DNA of 64,000 nucleotides from Acidimicrobiia bacterium (GTDB lineage Bacteria; Actinomycetota; Acidimicrobiia; Acidimicrobiales; SKKL01): positions 1 to 64,000 of the forward strand of contig JAENWR010000002.1 of assembly GCA_016649895.1 (NCBI GenBank). Reading direction: 5' to 3'. The position numbers and the translations under genes were made by a program. Below, one piece after another: positions 33,376-40,609 of this stretch. Every line of letters starts with the position of its first letter. The first letter of the stretch is position 1. The notes below the pieces were generated by a model. That model was not told where the DNA came from. It made no database searches and worked only from the letters and a program-made list of their open reading frames with translations.

Positions 33376-38039
<4,664 letters not shown>

Positions 38040-38567: not shown

Positions 38568-39272
38568 ATGTCCGATCGTCCAGGGGTGGACGCCCCCACC
38601 GAAGACGGCGCAGGGCCCCAGTCGGGTTCCGGGCCTGCCGATGCCGGACCCGACGCGTCCGACGATCGCCCCACCGATGTGCGCAGCGGCATCAAGGACC
38701 TCTTCGCAGCCGACCTCTTCGGTGCCGGCCCCAGCGATCCGCCGGCCGCACCTTCCCCGAGTCGGCCGGAGGCGGCCGAGCCCACCGAGGCGGCGAGCAG
38801 TGGACGTCTCCGGCTCCGCGAGCTGCTCGGCGGCGACGATCGCTCCGATCAGCAGGAGGACCCGTCGTTGCCGGGCTGGACCCGCGGCAAGCTGCGGGCC
38901 CGCAAGGTGCACCGCATCGTCCGGCGGGTCGACCCGTGGTCGGTGCTCAAGTTCTCGTTGATGTTCTTCTTCTGCGTCTGGCTGATGGCGGTGATCTCGG
39001 GCGTGCTCATCTGGGGCGTCGCCGTCGGGTCGGGCACCGTCGAGAACCTCGAGGGCTTCATCGCGCGACTCCTGTCGTTCGATGAGTTCCACTTCAACGC
39101 CGATCAGATATTCCGCCTCTTCGCCATGGGCGGGCTCATCATGGTGTTCCTGGCCACCGCCCTCGCCGCGATCTTGTCGGTGCTGTTCAACCTCATCAGC
39201 GATCTGATCGGCGGCATCCGCGTCACGGTCATCGAGGAGGAGACCACCCGTCGGATCGTGCGTCGGCCATGA
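38568..39272 (+). CDS. DUF3566 membrane protein
   Basis: A 234-residue protein. Residues 1-100 are acidic and disordered. The DUF3566 domain follows: RKVHRIVRRVDPWSVLKFSLMFFFCVWLMAVISGVLIWG, a loop, then a second membrane segment (IFRLFAMGGLIMVFLATALAAILSVLFNLISDLIGG) and a basic end. The gene downstream of gyrA in mycobacteria (Rv0007) is the same family; these are thought to act with division/envelope proteins, but function is unproven. Confidence 0.88.
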   Translation: MSDRPGVDAPTEDGAGPQSGSGPADAGPDASDDRPTDVRSGIKDLFAADLFGAGPSDPPAAPSPSRPEAAEPTEAASSGRLRLRELLGGDDRSDQQEDPSLPGWTRGKLRARKVHRIVRRVDPWSVLKFSLMFFFCVWLMAVISGVLIWGVAVGSGTVENLEGFIARLLSFDEFHFNADQIFRLFAMGGLIMVFLATALAAILSVLFNLISDLIGGIRVTVIEEETTRRIVRRP

Positions 39273-39337: not shown

Positions 39338-39411
<74 letters not shown>

Positions 39412-39470
39412 CGCAACCAGCTGCCGGTCCCACCGGTCAGCGAACCCGCAGGCCGCCGGAGGGAACCCCC

Positions 39471-39608
39471 GTGACGATGATCCGACGAGCGCTCATGGCC
39501 CTCGGGGTCGCCGGGCTGGTGGCGGCCGTGCTGCGCCTACGAGGTTCGGGCGGCACCCCTCCGAGCGAGGGTGGCTGGCGCGAGCTCAGCGGCCCGGATC
39601 TGCGCTGA
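39471..39608 (+). CDS. 45-residue membrane protein downstream of tRNA-Ile
   Basis: GTG 39471 to TGA 39608, with GGAGGG nine bases before the start. One hydrophobic helix (RRALMALGVAGLVAAVLRLRG) is followed by a short polar tail with Trp (GGWRELSGPDLR). Position after the gyrA-tRNA block and the helix-plus-Trp tail recall the short DLW-39 proteins of actinobacteria, but the C-terminal DLW is not present, so this is only an analogy. The next gene starts two bases later. Confidence 0.6.
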   Translation: MTMIRRALMALGVAGLVAAVLRLRGSGGTPPSEGGWRELSGPDLR

Positions 39609-39610
39609 AG

Positions 39611-40609
39611 GTGCCTGCCCCCCGCATCGCCGTCGTCGGCGTGGGCGCTGTCGGTGCCCGCGCGGCGCGGCAGCTGGTGTCATCCACCGAGGTCGGCACG
39701 GTCGTGCTGCGCGACATCGACGACACCCGGGTCGAGACCGCGGCTCGGTCACTCGGGTCCACCGCGGTCGCCGACCTGGGCCCGCACACGACCCCGCTCG
39801 ACGTCGAGGTCGTGGTCCTGGCCACCCCTGCCGGTACCCATGTCGAGTTGGCGAAGGAGCTCCTCGGCCGCAACATCTCGGTGGTCTCGGTCTCGGACTC
39901 GGTCGACGACGTGCGCGGGCTGCTCGACCTCGACGCCGAGGCACGCGAGCGGGGGCGGTCGGTCGTGGTCGGTGCCGGCTTCTCGCCGGGGCTCACATGC
40001 GTGCTGGCCCGCCACGCTGCATCCTCGTTCACCGAGGTCGATGAGATCCACGTGGCCGTCACGGGCACCGGTGGTCCGGAGTGTGCTCGCCAGCACCACA
40101 GGGCGCTGGGTGGATGGGCCATCGATTGGCGCGATGGCGGCTGGATCTCGCGGCGAGGGGGATCGGGCCGCGAGCTCTGCTGGTTCCCCGACCCGGTGGG
40201 GGCGCAGGACTGCTACCGCGCGGCTCGGCCCGATGCGCTCCTCCTCGCGCCCTCGTTCGAGGGGATCAGCCGGGTCACGGCCCGGGTGTCCGCCACTCGG
40301 CGCGATCGCCTCACCGCTCGCCTGCCGATGCTGCGCAAGCCCCACCCCGAGGGTGGGCCGGGCGCGGTGCGCGTCGAGTTGCGGGGCCGTCAGGGCGACG
40401 CTCGCCAGGTCAGGGTGCTCGGCGCCATGGATCGGCCAGCGGTTGGTGCCGGCGCAGTGGCTGCGGTGGCGGCCATCGCGGTGGTCGGGGGCGACATCAG
40501 CCGCCCTGGCGCCGCGGGTCTGGCCGACCTGGTCGAGCCGGTTGGATTCCTCGCCGAGCTGGCGCGGCGCGGGGTGAAGGCGGCGGTGTTCGAGGGCGTC
40601 GACGCCTGA
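39611..40609 (+). CDS. NAD(P)-binding oxidoreductase, saccharopine-dehydrogenase/Gfo-Idh-like
   Basis: A 332-residue protein with an N-terminal Rossmann fold (RIAVVGVGAVGARAARQL; acidic residue in VVLRDIDDTRV) and VVVLATPAGTHVELAKELLGR. The middle, VGAGFSPGLTCVLARHAA, recalls saccharopine dehydrogenase-like proteins. The C-terminal half is a substrate domain I cannot assign. GTG start directly after the small membrane-protein gene indicates co-transcription. Confidence 0.7.
   Translation: MPAPRIAVVGVGAVGARAARQLVSSTEVGTVVLRDIDDTRVETAARSLGSTAVADLGPHTTPLDVEVVVLATPAGTHVELAKELLGRNISVVSVSDSVDDVRGLLDLDAEARERGRSVVVGAGFSPGLTCVLARHAASSFTEVDEIHVAVTGTGGPECARQHHRALGGWAIDWRDGGWISRRGGSGRELCWFPDPVGAQDCYRAARPDALLLAPSFEGISRVTARVSATRRDRLTARLPMLRKPHPEGGPGAVRVELRGRQGDARQVRVLGAMDRPAVGAGAVAAVAAIAVVGGDISRPGAAGLADLVEPVGFLAELARRGVKAAVFEGVDA

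Follow-up and report, generated by a model that had tools for sequence, protein, structure and literature searches.

What does a 45-codon open reading frame between a tRNA gene and an oxidoreductase gene encode, and with what does its product work? The frame (smORF, 39471–39608 on the plus strand, stop codon included) lies in the window, a stretch of 64,000 nucleotides from an Acidimicrobiia bacterium. Upstream of it stand, on the same strand and in this order, gyrB (33454–35382), gyrA (35382–38039), a CofA-like DUF3566 gene (38568–39272) and a tRNA-Ile (GAT) gene without an encoded CCA (39338–39412, or to 39411 by Rfam). The gyrase genes were placed from the ORF list and Pfam, and the DUF3566 protein scores 72.2 bits against PF12089 (E 6.1e-20; gathering score 22.2 bits). 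The first-pass annotation had put the smORF behind a gyrA–tRNA-Ile block; both genes are there, but the DUF3566 gene lies between them. In the DUF3566 protein of the window, some 110 residues precede the domain as an N-terminal extension, a feature also reported for the Mycobacterium tuberculosis homologue (PMC7205459). At 402–483, near the start of the window, the minus strand matches the actinobacterial small RNA Ms_AS-4 strongly (RF02464, 87.2 bits), and this match overlaps open frames on the plus strand.

The smORF starts with GTG, 7 nt behind the plus-strand sequence GGAGGG (39458–39463), which bears out the strong ribosome site proposed for it, and encodes the 45-residue protein VTMIRRALMALGVAGLVAAVLRLRGSGGTPPSEGGWRELSGPDLR. 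Residues 7–21, between R5R6 and R22, form a hydrophobic core of 15 residues, ALMALGVAGLVAAVL (plus-strand codons 39489–39533). Its length and its low hydrophobic moment (0.10–0.22 over ten windows) make a single short membrane helix likely, in line with the one helix predicted earlier. The conserved tail was delimited from orthologue alignments and counts of the W-R-E residues; it is encoded by 39570–39605 (plus strand) and reads GGWRELSGPDLR in the window and GGWRELxGPDLR in the family. D-L-W near the C-terminus is the hallmark of the actinobacterial DLW-39 family and the source of its name; as had been noticed, the smORF protein ends differently. In the sense of lacking a family model the protein is indeed unannotated: no NCBIfam model matched it up to E 10, and the Pfam search returned only DUF3017, which we rejected as an identity, the match lying under the cut-off (E 0.14) and being confined to residues 4–23.

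The closest association of the smORF is with the gene behind it. The oxidoreductase gene (39611–40609, plus strand) opens with a GTG two bases past the smORF stop codon. In all 104 loci picked by the small gene, some genomes being included twice, a same-strand enzyme match starts no more than 548 nt past the small gene. Among 296 genomes of the class, taken to be Acidimicrobiia because most named relatives carry that label or Acidimicrobiales, the enzyme was found in 110 (E<=1e-40) and the small gene in 108 (E<=1e-3), with both in 105 and neither in 183, an overlap computed from hand-copied genome lists. The enzyme was found alone in five genomes. In four of them (G301, G253, G355, and G437), inspection by eye showed a diverged form of the small ORF between tRNA-Ile and the enzyme, its tail tryptophan being replaced by tyrosine in G253; the fifth (G377) ends at a contig edge. 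Three genomes (G324, G306, and G492) have a small-gene match and no enzyme, the match in G492 being weak and partial. In G324 (L142), the small gene follows tRNA-Ile and precedes an ORF starting MKIAITGASGFIGTALRRAL, presumably epimerase-like, in place of the usual enzyme. In G306 (L145, 1194–1438), it stands directly before a tRNA-Ala gene that ends the contig, an arrangement inside the class that has the order of many DLW-39 loci. When loci were picked by the enzyme, the small gene was present in 80 of 80 named loci (79 by HMM, one by eye), these being the best 80 of 368 candidates and so near relatives.

The two reading frames are also tightly spaced. Six of the 104 loci gave no start; among the remaining 98, the end of the small gene and the start of the enzyme gene share 4 nt in 30 cases and a single nucleotide in 16. 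Once repeats were removed, 27 of 87 loci had the 4-nt and 13 the 1-nt overlap; some of the large gaps are due to wrong automatic starts, as in L016, where the enzyme starts directly after the stop. Near-perfect co-occurrence and overlapping codons support a two-gene unit, and with it the coupling to the oxidoreductase that had been read from the window. The other neighbours are looser: tRNA-Ile and DUF3566 are each found upstream of the small gene in 69 of the 79 named loci, and the pair is intact in loci such as L007–L011, L089, and L090, which have no tRNA-Ile or DUF3566 in the upstream stretch examined. In the G021 assembly, the small gene and an enzyme gene occur together twice (L013 and L066, on contigs C280 and C57), through either contamination or duplication.

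The pair is older than the class. A first profile gave one convincing small-gene match outside the class in the phylum sample (G284), and a wider profile found matches in 8 of 24 genomes of the G284 lineage (f62); seven of the eight (L134, L176–L181) are small genes directly before the enzyme, with DUF3566 convergent behind the enzyme in six of these seven loci. The enzyme profile matches 64 of 292 phylum genomes at E<=1e-20. Outside the class, 25 remoter enzyme homologues were examined: 14 (L198–L200, L206–L214, L221, and L222) have an ORF with one helix and a tryptophan in its tail directly or closely ahead, and no such ORF was seen in the upstream DNA of the other 11 (L201–L205, L215–L220), which may be other paralogues. 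The f97 lineage has the pair in all five loci examined. Two of these, L199 and L200, show the order gyrA, tRNA-Ile, small ORF, enzyme, tRNA-Ala; DUF3566 has no match there.

The partner enzyme has 332 residues, and its best Pfam match is the Rossmann domain PF01408 (Gfo/Idh/MocA NAD-binding fold; 39.2 bits against a gathering score of 24). An AlphaFold model of a relative, L012, aligns with 8deb_A over 320 residues at 2.6 Å and Z 35.4; similarity over most of the chain thus assigns the enzyme a saccharopine-dehydrogenase-like fold. In the same comparison, the model reached Z 35.4 with carboxyspermidine dehydrogenase, 32.6 with lysine dehydrogenase and 26.8 with saccharopine reductase. Meso-diaminopimelate dehydrogenase, the best candidate by sequence, was weakened as an identity by a fold Z of 17–18, against 35 for carboxyspermidine dehydrogenase. 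Going by the fold alone, our guess is that the substrate would be an amine or amino acid. In AlphaFold models of two in-frame relatives (L012 and L260), the tail block of the small protein (residues 31–40) has a pLDDT of only 60 and 71, and docking of the tail on the enzyme gave no confident contact in either.

We lean towards the reading that the smORF is translated into a single-pass membrane microprotein, produced along with the downstream oxidoreductase and acting on it. Taken together, the near-fixed pairing, the coupling and the conserved tail that follows a short helix suggest a small membrane component of the enzyme, most likely a tether or regulatory subunit. The helix would sit in the membrane and the W-R-E tail would face the cytosol, where it could hold or regulate a soluble NAD(P)-type dehydrogenase at the membrane, with tight translational coupling keeping the two proteins in ratio. 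On this view, Actinomycetes would have in DLW-39 a small protein of a like kind that does without the enzyme. Against the enzyme-subunit reading count the low confidence of the tail block in both models, the shortness of the core together with the arginines on both of its sides, which leave the orientation ambiguous, and the 11 distant enzyme homologues without a small ORF.

The main rival starts from the copies that live without the enzyme. Like DLW-39, presumably, the smORF protein might act alone or have CofA (DUF3566) or some other membrane protein as its partner; adjacency to the enzyme would then mean no more than shared expression. The solo copies in G324 and G306, the latter with tRNA-Ala directly after it as in many DLW-39 loci, allow such a role, as does DLW-39 itself: it matches 104 of 148 genomes of the class of Streptomyces at E<=1e-3, and no enzyme match turned up in the roughly 3 kb examined at each of 46 DLW-39-type loci. 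The company of DUF3566, upstream in the named loci and convergent downstream in f62, fits as well. Within the class, however, the enzyme practically never occurs without the small gene, and a fair share of the loci lack tRNA-Ile and DUF3566 upstream. We regard an independent role as unlikely, if a serious contender, and retain the enzyme-subunit reading.

How the smORF relates to DLW-39 was addressed with profiles. The NCBIfam model NF038356 (actino_DLW39, a hypothetical equivalog with a cut-off of 24 bits) gave no match to the window protein up to E 10, matched one of 69 members of the small-protein family (at E 0.55) and none of 21 relatives' genomes, in a run in which no control genome matched. 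It scores above its cut-off in 16 of 246 phylum genomes and in 100 of the 148 genomes of the Streptomyces class. Direct comparison of the smORF family profile with that of DLW-39 gave E 0.0015–0.017, a level that 5 of 300 shuffled decoys reached and that the reversed profile exceeded, and homology from these profiles alone was not accepted. G473 (L112), with its small gene divided between two frames, was left out of this comparison and of the smORF dN/dS calculations.

A bridging set of 16 small proteins located ahead of the enzyme in other actinobacterial lineages gave a different result. Its profile matches the smORF family at E 4.6e-10 and DLW-39 at E 6.9e-6, with none of 200 column-shuffled decoys as high in either case. 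The former value was 5.1e-11 in an initial comparison that had L134 on both sides; the repeat against the smORF family dropped L134 and four diverged sequences. The set was picked by eye, and most f76, f89, and f94 ORFs had been pre-filtered for a tryptophan near the end, whereas no such filter applied when the three f97 ORFs, one f76 ORF (L206) and the f103 ORF were first identified. An f97 and f94 subset reached E 5.2e-7 against the smORF family and 5.1e-7 against DLW-39 (0 of 200 decoys each). By parts, f97 matches DLW-39 at E 4.9e-6 and the smORF family at 1.2e-5, and f76/f89/f103 at 1.7e-4 and 1e-5, respectively. The link to DLW-39 rests mainly on f97, without which E falls to 1e-4, and the small proteins of f62 match DLW-39 poorly (E 0.0021), which counts against including DLW-39 in our preferred explanation. 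The smORF, DLW-39, and bridging sets have in common a core with a median of 15 residues and a W-x-E pattern.

Gene order adds to this comparison. In the wider sense of a DLW-39-like superfamily, the smORF occupies the expected position in the window, behind DUF3566 and tRNA-Ile; the first-pass annotation had likewise placed it where many actinobacteria carry DLW-39-type microproteins. The 46 DLW-39-type loci, a few of them doubtful, contain tRNA-Ile in 23 cases, DUF3566 in 21, tRNA-Ala in 28, and both tRNAs in 19; several Streptomyces DLW-39 loci have neither tRNA-Ile nor DUF3566 within reach. In L175, the DLW-39 gene starts at 1498, directly at the tRNA-Ile end. That the smORF protein is unrelated to DLW-39, sharing only the locus and a converged tail, would agree with the decoy-level scores of the direct profiles, the silence of NF038356 and the poor f62 match. 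It agrees less well with the f97 and f94 intermediates, which match both sides above all decoys, with the equal core length and W-x-E pattern, and with the arrangement of genes: two f97 loci have tRNA-Ile, small ORF, enzyme, tRNA-Ala, which resembles tRNA-Ile, DLW-39, tRNA-Ala, and the small ORF followed by tRNA-Ala in G306 has its counterpart in the loci with both tRNAs. We consider such convergence improbable and remote common descent of the two proteins correspondingly likely. The suggestion of a divergent DLW-39 form thus stands in so far as the bridging proteins match both families, although the window protein falls outside NF038356; it is probably a divergent DLW-39-type microprotein within a two-gene unit.

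Start sites were compared at 90 unique loci; L134, whose upstream DNA was missing, did not enter this comparison. While the window's smORF has a normal ribosome site, many relatives' small genes have none. In 14 of the 90 loci, the small gene starts within 4 nt of the tRNA-Ile end called by ARAGORN, leaving a leader of 1–5 nt by the discriminator base and no SD-like site in any of them. At 42 of the other 76 loci, a TANNNT sequence, resembling a –10 box, ends 5–9 nt ahead of the start, compared with 1 or 2 of 76 in each of four wider control windows further upstream; an SD-like site is found at 23 of these 76. Such features are partly common to related genomes and are hence not independent events. 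In the named set of 79, the start abuts tRNA-Ile in 18 loci, is preceded by the box in 4 and by an SD-like site in 39, and has neither in 18. A start 1–5 nt past tRNA-Ile or 5–9 nt past a –10-like box suggests that many relatives read the small gene from leaderless mRNA, whose 5′ end may be made by tRNA 3′ maturation where the two genes adjoin. For comparison, a study of Streptomyces coelicolor classes leaders of less than 10 nt as leaderless and gives 53 of 65 tRNA genes as lacking an encoded CCA (PMC4681348).

Close spacing could also mean that the smORF serves as a leader or coupling ORF, and that the dehydrogenase depends on the act of translating it and not on its product. The overlapping stop and start codons in 46 of the 98 loci (40 of 87 distinct ones) would suit that function. 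Yet the W-R tail is conserved, amino acids are kept across lineages, solo copies persist, and dN/dS in the three pairs nearest the window is low: 0.13 against L002 (same genus), and 0.09 against L003 and 0.20 against L006 (both same family). A pure leader function is accordingly very unlikely. These close pairs carry the selection argument, since the median dN/dS of 0.48 over 1377 pairs with pS < 0.6 is read as affected by saturation. The protein matches 36 of 59 relatives' genomes at E<=1e-3, the window's own included; R22, W36, and R37 are invariant among 30 aligned orthologues, and R6, G25, G34, G35, W36, and R37 are kept in at least 90% of a wider set of 69 sequences. Entropies at the three codon positions are 1.07, 0.83, and 1.60 bits (91 sequences). 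Loss of the frame in close relatives, named at the outset as the finding that would overturn the claim, was thus not seen, and the smORF is confirmed as a real gene under purifying selection. A chance open frame, conceivable in GC-rich DNA with 115 ORFs of at least 30 aa in 13 kb, is ruled out, to our minds virtually beyond doubt, by this conservation and dN/dS.

Searches of open-licence papers found none on DLW-39 or DLW39 in full text, none on a small membrane protein with saccharopine dehydrogenase in Actinobacteria, and none on Acidimicrobiia with a small protein and gyrA. The smORF family is conserved, outside the family models searched and without a paper found on the two-gene unit. A broader and more tentative picture, which we hold possible but would not yet back, is that of an ancient actinobacterial module beside gyrA, cofA, and tRNA-Ile, in which a one-helix W-R-E microprotein would accompany a membrane-tethered amine or amino-acid dehydrogenase. 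The enzyme would have disappeared from Actinomycetes, where the microprotein would survive as DLW-39. In many species, the microprotein would be translated from a leaderless mRNA with a 5′ end set by a promoter of its own or by tRNA-Ile 3′ maturation, linking microprotein production to the processing of the tRNA. DLW-39 is an orphan family, and a putative relative that practically always travels with one dehydrogenase supplies it with a concrete candidate partner. Leaderless starts abutting tRNA-Ile, if true, would be a simple coupling of an mRNA 5′ end to tRNA maturation.

Three known systems lend themselves to comparison. The carboxyspermidine and lysine dehydrogenases and the saccharopine reductase of structures 8deb, 8h52, 3abi, and 1ff9 have the fold of the partner enzyme (Z 26.8–35.4) at only 16–19% identity and, to our knowledge, come without a membrane microprotein. 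CofA (DUF3566, PF12089), the upstream neighbour, is likewise an actinobacterial membrane protein at the gyrase–tRNA locus. It is a different protein from the smORF product: in Corynebacterium glutamicum it has two membrane helices and serves as cofactor of the cell-wall synthase PBP1a (PMC7205459). DLW-39 differs from the smORF protein in that the latter has G-G-W-R-E, no D-L-W and no NF038356 match, and is followed by the dehydrogenase in nearly all loci examined, as none of the DLW-39-type loci is. The two are alike in their length of about 40 residues, their basic N-terminus, the 15-residue core with basic residues after it and the W-x-E tail, and a few DLW-39 tails (L039, L159, L164, and L175) end in PDLR, as the smORF tail does.
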